Of a stretch of DNA of 64,000 nucleotides, positions 42,647-49,749 are shown one piece after another; position 1 is the first letter of the stretch, and the number at the start of each line of letters is the position of its first letter. The translations under genes were made by a program, and so were the position numbers. Below the pieces are notes generated by a model. The model was not told the DNA's origin and did no database searches. It saw only the letters and a program-made list of their open reading frames with translations. The DNA is taken from the NCBI RefSeq assembly GCF_031598375.1, contig NZ_CP123872.1, positions 1,364,001 through 1,428,000 on the forward strand. The letters run 5' to 3'. The stretch is from Temperatibacter marinus. Its GTDB lineage: Bacteria; Pseudomonadota; Alphaproteobacteria; Sphingomonadales; Kordiimonadaceae.

Positions 42647-43378
42647 TTAGCTGTCAACAGCTTCAAAACCATCAGTGCCTTCAATTAAACCATAAACTTG
42701 TTTTAAATTATGAGCAGATAAAGCTTTAGAAGCTGGTCCGCTTGAAATAAGCCGCCCTTGATCAAGAAGAATTAAACGATCAGCAAATCTTTGTGCAAGG
42801 TGTAAATCATGTAAGATAACGATGATGGTCTTACCTTGATCGGTTAGTCTGCGAAAAACAGCCATAACATCCAACTGGTGTCGTGGATCTAAGCTGGCAG
42901 TAGGTTCATCAATTAACAAGCAGTCGGCTTTTGTCGCCAAAGTGCGCGCCAGCAGAGTGAGGGCTCTTTCCCCTCCAGAAAGGGTTGTGACAATTCTGTC
43001 TTTCAGAGCTGTGATGCCTACTGTTTCGAGGGCATCTGTTATAATAGATTTATCTTTTTGTTCAGTCATTCCATGGGGGTATCGACCCAAGGCCACAATA
43101 TTTTCCACTGTCATAGGCCAGTGTATTGTTGTGCCCTGAGGCATATAGGCTATTTTTTTTGCTCTGTGCTCTGGATCAACGGCGTCCAAAGGCACGGAAT
43201 TTATCTTGATGGTACCCTCAAAGTCATGAAGTCCAATCAATGTTTTCATAAGAGATGTTTTACCAGCACCGTTAGGACCAACTAAAGCGATGAGTTTGCC
43301 AGCAGGGATCTCCAATGAAATATTTTTCAGCAAGACTGTATTGTTTACAGAAACTGACAAGTTTTGAACAGTAATCAT
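42647..43378 (-). CDS. btuD: Cobalamin ABC transporter ATP-binding protein
   Basis: The 243-residue ABC ATPase has Walker A GPNGAGKTSLMKTL, a Q-loop in YMPQGTTIHWPMTVENIVALG, signature LSGGERALTLLARTL, Walker B CLLIDEPTASLD and the switch His in ILHDLH. It belongs to the FecE/BtuD group for iron chelates and B12. The start codon touches the btuC stop (43378). Corrinoid specificity is inferred from the cobalamin riboswitch and TonB receptor at the head of the operon. Confidence 0.9.
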   Translation of the reverse strand: MITVQNLSVSVNNTVLLKNISLEIPAGKLIALVGPNGAGKTSLMKTLIGLHDFEGTIKINSVPLDAVDPEHRAKKIAYMPQGTTIHWPMTVENIVALGRYPHGMTEQKDKSIITDALETVGITALKDRIVTTLSGGERALTLLARTLATKADCLLIDEPTASLDPRHQLDVMAVFRRLTDQGKTIIVILHDLHLAQRFADRLILLDQGRLISSGPASKALSAHNLKQVYGLIEGTDGFEAVDS

Positions 43379-44361
43379 CAGCGCATCTCCCGCCTTGTCT
43401 TAAAGATAACCCACAAAAAGAAGGGGGCTCCAATGAAGGCTGTAACTACGCCAATCCGTAGCTCAGAATAAAAGCCAGGCAGCCTGACAAGAATATCTGC
43501 AAAGCCAAGAAGTAAAGCTCCAATAAGGGCGCTGGGGATCAGAGTTTTGCCTGGATCGTGCTGCACAAAGGGCCTCGCAATATGCGGGGTGATTAGTCCA
43601 ATAAACCCAATAATACCGGATACGGCCACTCCTGCTCCTACAATTAAGGCGCTTCCCAAAATGATCATCAAAGCTGTTTTTTCTGTATCAACGCCCATTG
43701 ATTTAGCAACATCTTCTCCGAGAGTTAAACTGGTGAGAGGTCTGCGTTGCCAGAAGATCATTATCATCCCGATGAGTATGAAAGGACCTGCTAGATAAAC
43801 ATCTGTAAGGGAGCGGTTTTCTAGTGATCCAAGCATCCACATCACCATCTCTTGCATACTTACAGGCGAAGGAGCAAAGCTAATAAGTAAAGAGGTCATC
43901 GCGCCGCAAAGGCTAGAGATAGCGACCCCGAGTAAGATGATTGTTAAATGACTGGCTTCTCTTCGAGTGATAAAGAATAAAGCAGCGGTCGCCAAAAAAC
44001 CGGAGAGCATAGCTGCAAGAGGCAACGCATAAGAAAACAGGCTTGTTAGGCCGTAATGGATGGCCAAGACCGCCCCCATGCTGCTAGCAGCAGATATGCC
44101 AAGAACACCAGGGTCAGCCAAGGGGTTTCTCAGCAACCCCTGTAGAGCGGCTCCTGAAATACCGAGCCCTGCACCTACAAAGAGTGCCAGCAAAAGACGC
44201 GGAATTCTAAGCTCAAATATGATCAGGGCAGTCGTCTCTTCTGCCTTTCCTGTGAGAGCCGAAGCAAGGTCTACAAACGAAAGGTCAACGGCGCCAAATT
44301 GAAGCGAAAAAAGTGCCATGATGAGCAAGAGTAAACCACTAATAATATGCAGGCGGGTCAT
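43378..44361 (-). CDS. btuC: Cobalamin ABC transporter permease (FecCD/BtuC family)
   Basis: The 327-residue protein has about ten membrane segments and the FecCD/BtuC hallmark GAALQGLLRNPLADPGVLGIS. Also visible are the loop SPVSMQEMVMWMLGSL and the GFIGLITPHIARPFVQHDPG coupling helix that contacts the ATPase. It overlaps btuF by 4 bases and shares one base with btuD, so the three components are tightly coupled. As homodimer it would form the inner-membrane path for vitamin B12 or another corrinoid. Confidence 0.9.
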   Translation of the reverse strand: MTRLHIISGLLLLIMALFSLQFGAVDLSFVDLASALTGKAEETTALIIFELRIPRLLLALFVGAGLGISGAALQGLLRNPLADPGVLGISAASSMGAVLAIHYGLTSLFSYALPLAAMLSGFLATAALFFITRREASHLTIILLGVAISSLCGAMTSLLISFAPSPVSMQEMVMWMLGSLENRSLTDVYLAGPFILIGMIMIFWQRRPLTSLTLGEDVAKSMGVDTEKTALMIILGSALIVGAGVAVSGIIGFIGLITPHIARPFVQHDPGKTLIPSALIGALLLGFADILVRLPGFYSELRIGVVTAFIGAPFFLWVIFKTRREMR

Positions 44362-45239
44362 TGATCTTCCTTTTGGTTATACTGATCACGAAGGTATTTG
44401 GCTGCGGGTATGGCAAAGAGACCACTGCAAGATAAATAACTGCCAGGAATGTCAATTCTTGTCACGGCATTGAGTTTCTTTTCAAAAAAATCATGCCGGG
44501 CAATGCCCCAATTGAAATTTACTGCAGAAGCCACATCGTAAAATCCAGTGATCATAATGTCGGGGGCCTTTTCAACCATGCGTTCTAAAGGAATTGGTTG
44601 CCACCCTGTATATCCCAGCTGGGACATATAGTTTTGAAAACCAGCAAGCTTAATAATCTCATTCATCAATGTCTTATCGCCAGTAGAAAAGGCGCCAGGT
44701 GTTAAATAAAGGGCTTGGCCTTTTACTGGTTTAAAGGCTTTCAACGCTTTAAAGTCGTTTTCAATATTTGTGAGCAATTGAGCGGCTTTTTCATGATGGC
44801 CGAACCGACCAGCTATCATGGATATTTTTTGTTTGGAAATATCATAGATGGTCTTTTTCTGTGAAGCTTGATCTTCCGACATAGAGATTTCAAGAAGAGG
44901 GACATTCAACTTGGCGAGGCTGATCGATAGGTTGCGGTCACCAGCCCAGCTTTTCACCACTAGATCAGGATTGAGAGATAGAATGAGGTCCGTTGAGGGC
45001 CTGATTTGACGGATCGACTCGACTTTATCCTTATAATAAGAGTGCGAGAGTGAGGCTTCCATAGAGACAGCAGCAATTTGAGAGCGCTCTGCAAGGCCGA
45101 GCACATATTGGTCGGCACAATAATCAAGAGATACAATCCGTGTTGGTTTCACGCCTTTTGGCTTCACGTCTTCTGGCATCGCGAGGCTGGAAAGAGTAGC
45201 GAACAGAGTCGGAATGATGGTCTTACTTATTTTTGCCAT
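44358..45239 (-). CDS. btuF: Periplasmic corrinoid-binding protein
   Basis: The 293-residue protein has a short signal region (TIIPTLFATLSSLAMPED). The two-lobed BtuF/FecB fold follows: TRIVSLDYCADQYVLGL as first strand-helix, then DLILSLNPDLVVKSW, a long connecting helix (YDISKQKISMIAGRFG) and the C-terminal lobe ending IPGSYLSCSGLFAIPAAKYL. It would deliver corrinoid to BtuC. It overlaps the upstream BtuF-like gene by 13 bases and btuC by 4. No lipobox is visible, so it should be a free periplasmic protein. Confidence 0.85.
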   Translation of the reverse strand: MAKISKTIIPTLFATLSSLAMPEDVKPKGVKPTRIVSLDYCADQYVLGLAERSQIAAVSMEASLSHSYYKDKVESIRQIRPSTDLILSLNPDLVVKSWAGDRNLSISLAKLNVPLLEISMSEDQASQKKTIYDISKQKISMIAGRFGHHEKAAQLLTNIENDFKALKAFKPVKGQALYLTPGAFSTGDKTLMNEIIKLAGFQNYMSQLGYTGWQPIPLERMVEKAPDIMITGFYDVASAVNFNWGIARHDFFEKKLNAVTRIDIPGSYLSCSGLFAIPAAKYLRDQYNQKEDQ

Positions 45240-46147
45240 GGTAACTGCCCTACAGGAATATCAACCCCTCGCGGTAGAGTGAAAGGGTGCCTTTTTGGGA
45301 AAAGAGAATGCGCCAATAATTCAAGGCTGTCTACAAGGCGCAAACTGGCCCTTGAGAATAATTGATTGCCATCAAAAAGATGAATTTTCGTGCCGTTGGA
45401 ATTTAAAATATCCAACTGGAAATATACATTTGATGTTAGAATTTCATTCAGAGTTCGCTTCATATCGAATCCGCAGCAAGCGATTGCGAGATGATCTGGC
45501 TTTGCTTGAATGAGAGCATCCCAATCACAGGAGAAAGATGGTTTTTCATTAAGATCAAAACAACTGTCAGCGCCCGCAAATTGTATGAGATCTCTCATCC
45601 AGTGCCCGCTGATAAAAGGGGGGTCGACCCAATCTAATAGAACCATAGAGGGTCGCGCGCCGTGTTGACGCTCTCTCACCTTTTGGATACGAGCCTGGCA
45701 GTCCTCATATAAATTTTTCGCCAAATCCTCACGAGCGGTCGCCTCGCCCAGTATGAGCAAAGTATTTAAGACATCATCAAGCGTGAAAGGTTCAAAATTG
45801 ATGAGCTGGACATGCTCAGGTAAATTACTCAGTGCTTTTTCTACATCGCGCCCATCAACAGCACAGACGTCGCACAGGGCTTGAGAGATGATAAGGTCCG
45901 GATTGAGAGACCTTATCTGGTCGATGTCTAGGATATAGAGAGCATTTTGATTTTGTAATTCTGATCGAACAAAATGATCAATTTCGATAGAAGAGGCGTC
46001 TTTTGGAACATTGCAGGAGGTAACGCGAGGTAAGTGTTTTATCTCTGCAGGATAGTCACAGGCATGCGAAATTCCAACCAGACTGTCTGCCAGTCCCAAA
46101 TCAGCAATCATTTCTGTTGCACTAGGTAGGAGAGAAATTATTCGCAC
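45227..46147 (-). CDS. Second BtuF-like protein, without signal peptide
   Basis: The 306-residue protein starts directly with the first strand of the fold, RIISLLPSATEMIADLGL, then LVGISHACDYP, DLIISQALCDVCAVDG and LLDWVDPPFISGHWM. No signal peptide or lipobox is present. The GTG at 46147 has AAGGA 7-8 bases upstream; a TTG at 46171 would add eight polar residues and still no signal. Such cytoplasmic BtuF relatives are annotated as cobalamin-binding proteins of unclear role. It lies between btuB and btuF, overlapping the latter. Confidence 0.82.
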   Translation of the reverse strand: MRIISLLPSATEMIADLGLADSLVGISHACDYPAEIKHLPRVTSCNVPKDASSIEIDHFVRSELQNQNALYILDIDQIRSLNPDLIISQALCDVCAVDGRDVEKALSNLPEHVQLINFEPFTLDDVLNTLLILGEATAREDLAKNLYEDCQARIQKVRERQHGARPSMVLLDWVDPPFISGHWMRDLIQFAGADSCFDLNEKPSFSCDWDALIQAKPDHLAIACCGFDMKRTLNEILTSNVYFQLDILNSNGTKIHLFDGNQLFSRASLRLVDSLELLAHSLFPKRHPFTLPRGVDIPVGQLPWQK

Positions 46148-46175
46148 GCCTGCATCCTTTCTTAAGGCCAACGAT

Positions 46176-48050
46176 TTAGAAAGTGATTTTCACACCCCCG
46201 TAGGCAGCAAAGCCAGGCGTAGAAAATCCATAGATATCTTCATACTCTGCATCTAGAGCATTCTCCAAACGGCCGAATAAAGCAATTGAATCGTTCAATT
46301 GATAGGTACTAGCCACCCGTAAAAGAAGATAGTCGCCGACAGAGACACGTTCGCTAGGATTAGGCCACGGCGGGAAGAAGAGATCTGTTGCTTTGCCAGT
46401 ATAGACACCAGATATTGTCAGGTCGAGATGATCCATCGGGGATGTTGTCAGCCCAAATGTCGCTGTATGTTTTGGCCGTCTTAACTCTTGAGAACGAGTG
46501 CCAAAACTATCTGTTTCAGTTGCGTCAGTATAGGTATAGCTTCCTGTAAAGGAGGTAGTTTCAGAGAGCTGCCAGTCAAGAGTAAATTCAAATCCCTTGC
46601 GTTTACTTTCTTCATCTTTATTGACGGCGGTATATAAGAAAGAGGTTGTATCGAAAGCGAAGCCATTAATTTCATTTTTCAAATCTGATGTATAAGCTGT
46701 AACAGACGCTGAAACTGCCTCAGTAAATGCGTGCTCAATGCCAGCCTCAAAAGTAATAGACTCTTCAGGAGATAAGGTTGGATTCCCGATAAATTGATCT
46801 GGGAAAAAACCAAATCTCTCTAGAAAGGTGGGTGCTTTTTGACCGCGCGAGATGCTTGAAAAGAAACGAGTTTGATTTGATAAACTATAACTCAGACCAG
46901 CACGCCAACTAGTAAAATCATCAAAATCTGAGTGCCAATCTTTTCGCAAAGACAGGGCAAGTGTGAAGGCGTCAGTCGGGGTCAGGAGAGTGTCTGCTGT
47001 TAAGCCTGTTACCTTTACGGATTGATCTTGATTTGGATCCCCCCACGGGCTTGCATCCCCTGTCTGCGTGAAGTCAGTTTTTTCATGATCTAGAGCAAGG
47101 GTTAATACTTGCCAATCGCTGACTTGATAGCGTGTGTCAAAGCTTACAGAAAAACGATTTGAGCCTGTTGTCCCATTGTCTGAGCCTGCCGAATAATTGT
47201 CAATCTGTGTATCGCTATAGCCCAGCTTAGCTGTGATGAATAGGTCATCATTCATTTGATGATCAACTTTTGCTGAAAAATATGTTTTTGCCGATTCAGT
47301 AATAAGATCGCCGTCCGCAGGAAACCCAGTAAGGAAATCAGTGCCGTCAAAGGCATTTTCACTGGATGAATGACGAAGAGAGGTGATGAGCGTTGTTGCT
47401 TCAGCAAGCTGCACAGTTGCTTTTAAAGAGGCTGTAAAATCTTCATAGCCATCTGTTTCACCGCCTTGACGAGACACATTGATCCCCTCTGATTTTTTAT
47501 AGGAAAGTGACCCTTGAACAGAGATACGCTCAGAAGATTGCGTCAGGGAGGCCCGTAAAGCTTTGGTGTCAAAGCTACCATATTCTGCGGCAAGGCTAAT
47601 CCCAGATTGCTCGCCTGACGTTGTGATAATATTCACCACACCAGCGAGCGCATCACTGCCCCAGCTGGCACTGACGGGGCTTTTAATGATTTCGATGCGT
47701 TCAATTGAGAGGGCTGAAAATAATTCCCATTGGACCTCATCGCCTGCAGCCGGGTCATTCATTTCTACACCATCAATCATGACAAGAAGATGATTGGCTT
47801 CCGCGCCTCTAGGTCGAATTTGTGTTTGTCCGCCAACAGATCCAGCGCGTGAAACAGAAAGGCCTGCCACTGATTTTAGAATATCAGCGACAGTTTGATA
47901 CTGAGCCTTTTCAATATCAGCTTTTGTAATAACGGTGACTTTTGAGGTGGATTTACTCAACTCAATAGGTGTGCGTAGGGCGGTAACAGTGATTTCCTCA
48001 GCAGCATCGTCTTGAATGAGCGAGGATAAAATGAAAAGTGTTTCAATCAT
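46176..48050 (-). CDS. btuB: TonB-dependent vitamin B12 receptor (BtuB-like)
   Basis: The 624-residue outer-membrane protein begins with a short signal (MIETLFILSSLIQ). A TonB box-like ITVTA and the plug domain follow, with TVADILKSVAGLSVSRAG, QIRPRGAEANHLLVMIDGV and GSDALAGVVNIIT. The rest is a 22-stranded barrel ending in the terminal aromatic KITF. BtuB identity is supported by the cobalamin riboswitch directly upstream and the btuFCD genes downstream. The ATG at 48050 has GGAG 9 bases upstream; a TTG at 48065 overlaps this SD and is rejected. Confidence 0.92.
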   Translation of the reverse strand: MIETLFILSSLIQDDAAEEITVTALRTPIELSKSTSKVTVITKADIEKAQYQTVADILKSVAGLSVSRAGSVGGQTQIRPRGAEANHLLVMIDGVEMNDPAAGDEVQWELFSALSIERIEIIKSPVSASWGSDALAGVVNIITTSGEQSGISLAAEYGSFDTKALRASLTQSSERISVQGSLSYKKSEGINVSRQGGETDGYEDFTASLKATVQLAEATTLITSLRHSSSENAFDGTDFLTGFPADGDLITESAKTYFSAKVDHQMNDDLFITAKLGYSDTQIDNYSAGSDNGTTGSNRFSVSFDTRYQVSDWQVLTLALDHEKTDFTQTGDASPWGDPNQDQSVKVTGLTADTLLTPTDAFTLALSLRKDWHSDFDDFTSWRAGLSYSLSNQTRFFSSISRGQKAPTFLERFGFFPDQFIGNPTLSPEESITFEAGIEHAFTEAVSASVTAYTSDLKNEINGFAFDTTSFLYTAVNKDEESKRKGFEFTLDWQLSETTSFTGSYTYTDATETDSFGTRSQELRRPKHTATFGLTTSPMDHLDLTISGVYTGKATDLFFPPWPNPSERVSVGDYLLLRVASTYQLNDSIALFGRLENALDAEYEDIYGFSTPGFAAYGGVKITF

Positions 48051-48057
48051 GATAGAT

Positions 48058-48099
48058 ATCTCCAATACAAAACTGTGGGTTGGAGATCTATGTCCAACC
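48058..48099 (-). promoter_or_regulatory. Riboswitch expression platform: alternative hairpins at the btuB SD
   Basis: In RNA sense, ATCTCCAA (48087-48080) is complementary over 8 bp to TTGGAGAT (48065-48058), which contains the btuB SD, so pairing would hide it. The same ATCTCCAA region can instead pair upstream: GGTTGGA (48099-48093) with TCCAACC (48084-48078). The two hairpins cannot coexist. This fits control of translation initiation, and no T-run is present to suggest termination. Confidence 0.65.
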
Positions 48100-48174
48100 G
48101 CACAACGATAAAAATAGTCGTCGTTACGGTTGTACCGCCCATTGTTGCGCTATTCCCGGCACTCAGGATCGACG

Positions 48175-48335
48175 TGCGATGGCAGGTTTCCTGACTTGTG
48201 GTTCTTCATTTTATACCGCCTTCCCAAATAAATTCAGTGGCATTGGATATAAAACTCATCACTTACAGTTGCGGGGACAGCACTGGATTTGCACCAGTTT
48301 CCCTATTATCTCGGTATTAGCCGAGCACCATCTGA
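48175..48335 (-). ncRNA. Cobalamin riboswitch
   Basis: The minus-strand transcript contains all the hallmark blocks. They are GATGGTGC near the 5' side, a CTCGGC/CCGAG hairpin, GGGAAACTGGTGCAAATCC, GCTGTCCCCGCAACTGTAA, GGGAAGGCGGT, and the B12 box AAGTCAGGAAACCTGCC (48182-48197 region). It precedes btuB by about 125 bases. When adenosylcobalamin is bound, riboswitches of this class repress uptake genes. The 5' limit lies only about 20 bases from the stop of the upstream hydrolase gene. Confidence 0.95.
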
Positions 48336-48357
48336 TCGCCTTTTCGCAAATTGATTG

Positions 48358-49749
48358 TTATTTGTCCAGCGCTTTTAGAATATCTTTTGCAAAGGTTGCC
48401 ATATCAAAACGGCCACCAGTTGCGCTATCATAGCCACGGCGCACAATCAGGAGGTTATGCTGAGGAAGCATCAGCATAATTTGGCCTCTGTTGCCTCGCG
48501 AGGCATACCCAAGGCCAGGATAGAGCCAGAATTGGGCACCGTAGCCAATGTCACGACCTTCAGGTTGTGCGGGTGCAGGGTGCGCCACATAAGAGGCCCA
48601 GCCCTTTGGTAAGATTTGCTCATCTCCCCATTGTCCGTCTTGTAAATAGAGAATACCAAGCCGGGCGAGATCTCTGGAGGTTGTCCAGACCTGAGAAGAC
48701 ATAATAAAATTACCGCCCCAGTCGCTTTCAGGAACTGTGTGATACATGCCTATTTTATCAAACAGATTTAGATAAGGATAGGCGAGATGTTTTTCCACAT
48801 GATCTCCTTGTGCAGCCCTTAAGGCTCTCGTTAGAAGCATGGTGTCATTATTCGCATATTTCCAGCGTTTCCCAGGGGTGGTTTCAAGGGGCTGATGCAC
48901 AGCAGTGTCTGTCACTCTATTGCCGCCCCAATATACCTTGTCAGTGCGATTGCCTGCTCTTGTGCTGAATAGGCCGCTGCCCATGTGGATAAGATTCTCA
49001 AGGGTAATGGCTCTACGAGGATCACCGGGTGATTGCCATTCAGGGATTTGGACGGGCTCTTTAAGGTCTATAAGCCCGTCTTTGACAGCAATCCCGATGA
49101 CAGAGGCTGCGATAGACTTGGCTGTTGACCATGTACGTTGAGAGGTCCACGGTGTATAATCAGATCTATAGGTTTCGGCGATCAGCTTAGTGGGTGTAGA
49201 AATTAAAATAGCAGTTGTCTTCTGTCCCGGTTTATTTGTGTTATATTTGGATCCATTAAAGGCTGCTTTAATCACAGTGTTTAAGGCTTTGTTTGACGAA
49301 GTTTGAATGTCTTTAGGGTCGCCGTTCGGCCAAGATGTTCCCCGATTTGATAAAGGGGGTAGTGTAATCGTCGGCATGTATTTTATGTCATTAACTGTTG
49401 TACCGACAGGCATTTGGACACAGCCTAGCCTGCCTCTATACCACCATAGTCGAGGGGGTAACTTTTCATCATATTTGATTGCCACCGTCTTATTTGTATA
49501 GTCTATGACCGCCTCAGGGAGGCTGTTTACAATCTCTTGTAATTCAGGGCGAATACCCGTGAGCTCATCTGCTTTGATTTTATCGAGGGATTTGCCTCCA
49601 TTAAAGACACCACCGCATGTGAATACACCTTTATAGCCCGCAGCGATGGCTCTTTTATACAGAGGCCAGTCATAATCATGTGCGTACGTAGGAATAGAAA
49701 CTACTGAGAGGAGAGCAGCAGAAAGAAGTGATTTAGTAATGCTGTTCAT
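48358..49749 (-). CDS. Exported serine hydrolase (class C beta-lactamase/PBP-like)
   Basis: The 463-residue protein starts with a signal peptide (LLSAALLSVVSIPTYAHD). The serine beta-lactamase fold shows SxxK in WSTAKSIAASVIG, the YxN-type motif in KYANNDTML and a GNRGQ stretch near the third motif. The preceding region has LENLIHMGSGL, common in these esterase/peptidase relatives. A roughly 150-residue N-terminal part ahead of the fold is not recognised. Its substrate is unknown; antibiotic resistance should not be assumed. It follows fghA by 23 bases, and its 3' end may hold the btu promoter. Confidence 0.8.
   Translation of the reverse strand: MNSITKSLLSAALLSVVSIPTYAHDYDWPLYKRAIAAGYKGVFTCGGVFNGGKSLDKIKADELTGIRPELQEIVNSLPEAVIDYTNKTVAIKYDEKLPPRLWWYRGRLGCVQMPVGTTVNDIKYMPTITLPPLSNRGTSWPNGDPKDIQTSSNKALNTVIKAAFNGSKYNTNKPGQKTTAILISTPTKLIAETYRSDYTPWTSQRTWSTAKSIAASVIGIAVKDGLIDLKEPVQIPEWQSPGDPRRAITLENLIHMGSGLFSTRAGNRTDKVYWGGNRVTDTAVHQPLETTPGKRWKYANNDTMLLTRALRAAQGDHVEKHLAYPYLNLFDKIGMYHTVPESDWGGNFIMSSQVWTTSRDLARLGILYLQDGQWGDEQILPKGWASYVAHPAPAQPEGRDIGYGAQFWLYPGLGYASRGNRGQIMLMLPQHNLLIVRRGYDSATGGRFDMATFAKDILKALDK
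48379..48407 (-). promoter_or_regulatory. Candidate promoter of the riboswitch-btu transcript
   Basis: On the minus strand TTGATA (48407-48402) and GATATT (48384-48379) have a 17-base spacer. Transcription would start around 48370, inside the last codons of the serine hydrolase gene and about 35 bases before the riboswitch core. No other room for a promoter exists between the hydrolase stop and the aptamer. Confidence 0.45.

Follow-up and report, generated by a model that had tools for sequence, protein, structure and literature searches.

How can a cobalamin aptamer govern translation of the btuB gene behind it, when the hairpins formed around the Shine–Dalgarno sequence (SD) of the gene share no strand with the aptamer? 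In the window (the whole 64,000-nucleotide stretch of DNA analysed here), the initial annotation had placed two exclusive hairpins at 48058–48099, one of them carrying the SD, and had taken them to explain how the aptamer acts without a terminator. The masking of the SD, the rival hairpin, and the absence of a terminator-like site were borne out, but the two hairpins alone are insufficient because neither has a strand in common with the aptamer, and a further hairpin (H1) and a helix (a:a') are needed. The core idea is thus partly supported, in a form extended by H1 and a:a'. Judged from the sequence, the window contains a real, conserved B12 riboswitch platform, and we propose, with a probability of about 60%, that it is a cobalamin riboswitch of the translational OFF type, controlling btuB, in which H1 and a:a' relay the state of the aptamer to the SD.

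The aptamer, the btuB gene and the candidate L5/L13 loop pair

The aptamer is located on the minus strand (48164..48347) and matches the Rfam cobalamin riboswitch model RF00174 over its full length (model positions 1–189; 127 bits against a gathering threshold of 31.5 bits; E-value, 1.6e-31), being the sole RF00174 match in the 3.18-Mb genome at E ≤ 0.001. As already annotated, it precedes btuB (46176..48050, minus strand; ATG, 48050–48048), whose product resembles TonB-dependent B12 receptors on the basis of TIGR01779 (E-value, 5.1e-79, with a score below the curated cut-off, 266.4 vs 599.7 bits), the plug and barrel domains found by Pfam, and the PDB, in which the best six matches are BtuB. 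Profile matches in the region following btuB (42647..46171, minus strand) assign two Peripla_BP_2 proteins, a FecCD permease (BtuC-like), and an ABC ATPase (BtuD-like), a gene set that appears to resemble a B12 uptake operon; because all scores are below the curated NCBIfam cut-offs, the btu names of these downstream genes are putative and given by context. The two Peripla_BP_2 proteins, encoded side by side after btuB (45227–46171 and 44358–45239, minus strand), are distinct and both weakly BtuF-like, and inspection by eye reveals no obvious signal sequence in the first (45227–46171). Two B12-binding domains (PF02310) are encoded in the genome (G000:C1:2449670-2449945 and 2515905-2516249), which therefore has likely users of imported B12. 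An open reading frame of 117 amino acids on the plus strand (48080–48433) overlaps the riboswitch in antisense and is probably spurious.

Within the aptamer, the C-rich loop L5 (CCCCG) is found at 48276–48272 on the minus strand, and directly after the aptamer a hairpin, GUGC[CGGGAAUA]GCGC (48147..48162, minus strand), is assigned as P13/L13 from its sequence and the L5/L13 rule given in PMC10653944. The CGGG of L13 is complementary to the CCCG of L5, making the two loops a candidate for a kissing interaction, with P13 itself showing a low probability in the folds (0.0–0.2). The loop of the SD-masking hairpin (UUUUGUA, with UGCAAAU as its partner) had also been considered as L13 and was dropped; the papers and the alignment identify L5 as the C-rich loop and L13 as the CGGG hairpin just past the aptamer.

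Competing strands around the btuB Shine–Dalgarno sequence

The SD (GGAG, 48063–48060) lies 9 nt upstream of the start codon and belongs to strand 4 (UUGGAGAU; 48058..48065, minus strand), which is defined by its sequence and pairing. In the SD hairpin, an 8-bp perfect helix joins 48087–48080 with 48065–48058 across a loop of 14 nt (minus strand; arms, ATCTCCAA/TTGGAGAT, or AUCUCCAA/UUGGAGAU in RNA), the SD being inside TTGGAGAT. The second hairpin, GGUUGGA/UCCAACC, is a 7-bp perfect helix of 48099–48093 with 48084–48078 (loop, 8 nt; minus strand), which UGUG/CACA lengthens to 11 bp interrupted by a single bulge (48104–48074). Since the UCCAA strand is common to both helices, they are mutually exclusive, as the initial annotation had read them. 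Of 5000 dinucleotide-shuffled versions of 48048–48138, 3 contain such a pair of rival helices (each with at least seven Watson–Crick pairs, sharing at least 5 nt, and with loops of at most 25 nt), and the 125-nt platform (48036–48160) is more stable than its shuffles (z-score, −2.46; 4 of 200 equally good). Both parts of a platform of the btuB type, a helix of the anti-SD that masks the SD and an exclusive helix that would free it, are present.

In terms of strands, the anti-anti-SD (strand 2, UGUGCGGUUGGA; 48093..48104, minus strand) overlaps the 3' arm of H1, and the anti-SD (strand 3, AUCUCCAACCCACA; 48074..48087, minus strand) has either strand 2 or strand 4 as its partner. The cores of strands 1 to 4 (CAACCG, CGGUUGGA, CUCCAACC, and UUGGAG) permit either 1:2 together with 3:4, or 2:3. 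Strands 1 and 2 form the core of H1 (48092..48135, minus strand), in which CAACCG (48132–48127) pairs with CGGUUG (48100–48095); H1 is the most stable element of the platform (−18.3 kcal/mol), is present in the predicted minimum-energy fold, and competes with the second hairpin, the 5' arm of which overlaps its 3' arm. Strand 1 takes part also in the small hairpin 0:1 (48127..48137, minus strand), formed by CGGU (48137–48134) and ACCG (48130–48127). The 5' arm of H1 further contains strand a' (CGACG; 48119..48123, minus strand), which is complementary to strand a (CGUCG; 48170..48174, minus strand) just past P1 and would pair with it in the proposed ON state. P13/L13 and a:a' are both situated between the aptamer and the rival hairpins, with P13 enclosed by a:a'. 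In the minus-strand transcript, the 3' arm of P13 with its flank (GCGCAAC, 48150–48144) could also pair with the 3' arm of H1 (GUUGUGC, 48106–48100) over 7 bp including one G-U, which in the window would give P13 and H1 another potential connection; this pairing was not evident by eye among the relatives inspected.

The choice between the two hairpins could in principle be made by B12 directly, with H1 being incidental. Both hairpins are indeed present and exclusive, and, taken alone, the extended second hairpin is more stable than the SD hairpin (−14.3 vs −11.3 kcal/mol); however, neither is connected to the aptamer by a shared strand, and the still more stable H1 shares strand 2 and has arms that are conserved in relatives. 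Together with the pairing of strand 2 in relatives described in the following section, these features render a direct switch rather unlikely.

Folding of the growing transcript gave a succession of structures. With the 3' end at 48118, a:a' reaches 0.85 and 0:1 (CGG/CCG) 0.58; H1 takes over with the 3' end at 48102–48082; at 48074–48070, 2:3 (0.58–0.61) stands against H1 (0.41–0.44); and from 48058 on, 3:4 hides the SD (0.99). At equilibrium without ligand, the OFF state lies below the ON state by 4.5 to about 8 kcal/mol (−41.0 vs −32.7 kcal/mol), indicating that the ON state would be kinetic, or helped by something outside the folding program. When the 2:3 state is forced, weak local pairs still involve most of the SD (unpaired values, 0.16, 0.11, 0.13, and 0.81).

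An SD hairpin at 0.99 at equilibrium would also be expected if the ligand only stabilised P13 through the kissing loop next to a constitutively favoured SD hairpin, with the alternative helices playing a minor part. The match of the L13 CGGG to the C-rich L5 agrees with this reading, and regulation through a kissing loop has been reported for btuB of E. coli and for env8 (PMC10653944). We nevertheless consider it unlikely, as it leaves the conserved a:a' and the strand-2 complementarity unexplained and provides no ON state. Control that is mainly Rho-dependent or otherwise transcriptional, with masking of the SD being secondary, is extremely improbable; Rho-linked loss of mRNA after a translational block is described for E. 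coli (PMC11162775), but a scan of 47900–48500 in the window revealed no terminator-like site. The initial annotation, also seeing none, had named control of the transcript by a terminator as counting against its proposal.

Conservation of the platform in relatives

RF00174 is present in 28 of the 29 genomes of the family (that of the window included), with 41 riboswitches in total. Seven were left out, namely one truncated copy, four before metE-like genes, and two before CbtA-like genes, as we presume these genes to be by eye from sequence features; the remaining 34 leaders were aligned, and 27 of them constitute alignment A1 and model R1. The riboswitches before the metE-like genes (L002, L004, L013, and L033) have no a:a' by eye and seemingly a different platform.

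Applied to the 27 leaders unprompted, RNAalifold returned P13, the small hairpin CGG/CCG (0:1), and helix a:a', which in the family is formed by GUCGCC just after P1 and GGCGAC in the 5' arm of H1. The helix is kept in 26 of the 27 rows, the exception being the window, which has its own shifted version of only 5 bp, out of register in the family alignment. One end pair of the helix occurs as GC (16), GU (7), and AU (3) across A1. Over all 34 rows (33 distinct), 97% of the a:a' cells are paired, and two of the six pairs have changed on both sides; these counts serve a:a' only, P13 and 0:1 being misplaced in the structure used for the count (59% and 30% paired, respectively).

In wider searches, R1 has matches in 88 genomes out of 246 for the order and in 39 out of 190 for the class, of which the low-scoring ones may reflect the B12 box alone, because R1 includes this conserved box; as R1 also contains a:a', the loci found with it are biased for this helix, whereas sets found with RF00174 are unbiased. 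An independent RF00174 sample of the class gave 77 matches in 39 of 58 genomes. Leaving out the 7 lower-scoring matches, we inspected 69 leaders besides the window, 65 of which were usable. The leaders' own flanks form a better downstream helix than swapped ones (mean score, 6.46 vs 5.72; 0 of 5000 permutations as good, 65 leaders), under a score that accepts any helix in the zone, the best helix found often being other than a:a'; at the same score threshold, 55 of 65 own flanks pass against 66% of the swapped pairs. By eye, a:a' can be recognised in many of the leaders preceding receptor-like genes, with widely different letters (GUCGCC:GGCGAC, GUCGUC:GACGAC, AUCGCC:GGCGAU, GUCACC:GGUGAC, and GCAUCACU:AGUGAUGC). 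The last of these variants belongs to a leader from another family of the class (L194, identical to L145) and is a striking compensatory change.

The remaining helices were examined by a swap test, in which the pairing of strands from the same leader is compared with that of strands exchanged between genomes in 5000 permutations. A loose set of 55 leaders was obtained from 107 by dropping 44 (those lacking an anchor or a start, or oddly spaced) and then 8 near-duplicates, and a strict set of 44 leaders from 56 by dropping 12 with too short a strand-2 zone; the window is absent from both. The own SD and anti-SD strands (3:4) outperform swapped ones in both sets (0 of 5000 each), lending support from relatives to the SD masking that had been annotated. 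The arms of H1 are likewise matched to each other (0 of 5000), weakly so outside the own and the second family (933 of 5000). For 2:3, own strands are also better matched in the loose test, both with strands overlapping by up to 3 nt (0 of 5000; 55 leaders) and without overlap (0 of 5000; 48 of the 55 leaders), and in the strict test (9 of 5000; 44 of the 56 leaders). Divided by group, the strict 2:3 matching is weak in the own family (422 of 5000), clearer in the second family (86 of 5000), and absent outside these two (2589 of 5000). Control strand pairs expected not to match gave 2066, 2247, and 3505 of 5000.

We also compared the downstream pairing of strand 2 with that obtained for shuffled spacers, after dropping 8 of the 34 family leaders. 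Without a:a', this pairing did not exceed chance across the family, being above the shuffles in 14 of 26 leaders (p = 0.32), with 7 of the 26 beating at least 19 of 20 shuffles. In the window itself, downstream sequence does invade strand 2 under this condition (3.2 vs 0.0 pairs; 0 of 20 shuffles), as a direct switch between the two hairpins would have it. When the RNA was begun after a', mimicking a' paired to a, 46 of 48 leaders paired strand 2 downstream beyond their shuffle mean (own family, 25 of 26; second family, 21 of 22, with 7 of its 29 leaders dropped from this test). The p values (3e-8 and 7e-7, respectively) overstate the independence of the leaders, which are related and, in the second family, mostly found with R1. 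The 95% level is reached individually by only 4 leaders of the own family (out of 26) and 11 of the second (out of 22), the window (0.23) not being among them. The strand-2 pairing thus exceeds chance across the family only with a' occupied, which argues against the direct switch and is as predicted for a gate, where 2:3 could form only as long as H1 is kept from closing.

A proposed relay from the aptamer to the SD and its relation to known riboswitches

The order of the strands is a, P13/L13, and 0, then the two arms of H1 (1 with a' on the 5' side and 2 on the 3' side), followed by 3 (anti-SD) and 4 (SD). In the proposed relay, a:a' and 0:1 would form in the absence of B12 as soon as they are transcribed and block H1, so that strand 2 could capture strand 3 ahead of the transcription of the SD, leaving the SD free (ON). 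With B12 bound, kissing of L5 and L13 would stretch the short linker between P1 and P13, which holds strand a, away from a'; H1 would then close and take strand 2, and the released strand 3 would mask the SD (OFF), resulting in repression of btuB. We infer this order of events as a kinetic one.

Weakening of a:a' by the ligand is an assumption in this scheme, and the opposite effect is conceivable because P13 lies inside a:a'. If a:a' belonged to the ligand-bound state, with the stabilisation of P13 in turn stabilising the helix that encloses it, B12 would switch translation on, and an activating corrinoid riboswitch has been described (PMC10653944). Yet the gene encodes a B12 uptake receptor, which in E. 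coli is repressed by AdoCbl (PMC11162775), and activation by B12 is accordingly very unlikely here.

The relay with ligand-weakened a:a' may extend to the btuB cobalamin riboswitches of the class as a three-step device, in which a:a' holds open the gate H1, and the arm thus freed serves as the anti-anti-SD; the sign would be inverted twice, so that B12 still represses, and the gate would separate sensing from the SD, with either end evolving freely. We give this generalization an even chance. The conserved a:a' offers a concrete, testable connection of the P1–P13 linker to the SD in translational platforms. Our literature search found no such relay among the papers it covered, and key older papers on B12 riboswitches may describe one.

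Parts of the proposal have counterparts in known systems. In generic sequestor platforms, the ligand removes an antisequestor, and the sequestor forms (PMC2258182), as proposed for the window; unlike in these platforms, the antisequestor of the window would itself be gated by a third hairpin. The metE corrinoid riboswitch of Priestia megaterium likewise combines an L5–L13 kissing loop, a candidate here, with exclusive downstream helices (PMC10653944); it is transcriptional, and the 3' side of its P13 itself forms the antiterminator, whereas the window would use a:a' pairing and the SD as output.

Closely similar is E. coli btuB, which also has a cobalamin aptamer on btuB, P13/L13 (in E. coli a kissing element) after the aptamer, and a stem-loop that masks the SD, with an anti-SD/anti-anti-SD helix in the ON state (PMC11162775). 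R1 gave no match to the E. coli btuB locus at E-values up to 10. In the E. coli leader, the post-P1 GUCGCA can pair with UGCGGC beyond P13 (−9.6 kcal/mol), and UGCGGC, in our own reading, directly overlaps the anti-SD arm, so that this pairing would act on the masking stem. In contrast, H1 is inserted in the window, where a' would block H1, and the other arm of H1 is the anti-anti-SD. From this comparison, the platform of the window is probably of the E. coli btuB kind with H1 inserted, the gate being the point of difference, and the insertion would illustrate how such a platform can be lengthened with its sign unchanged.
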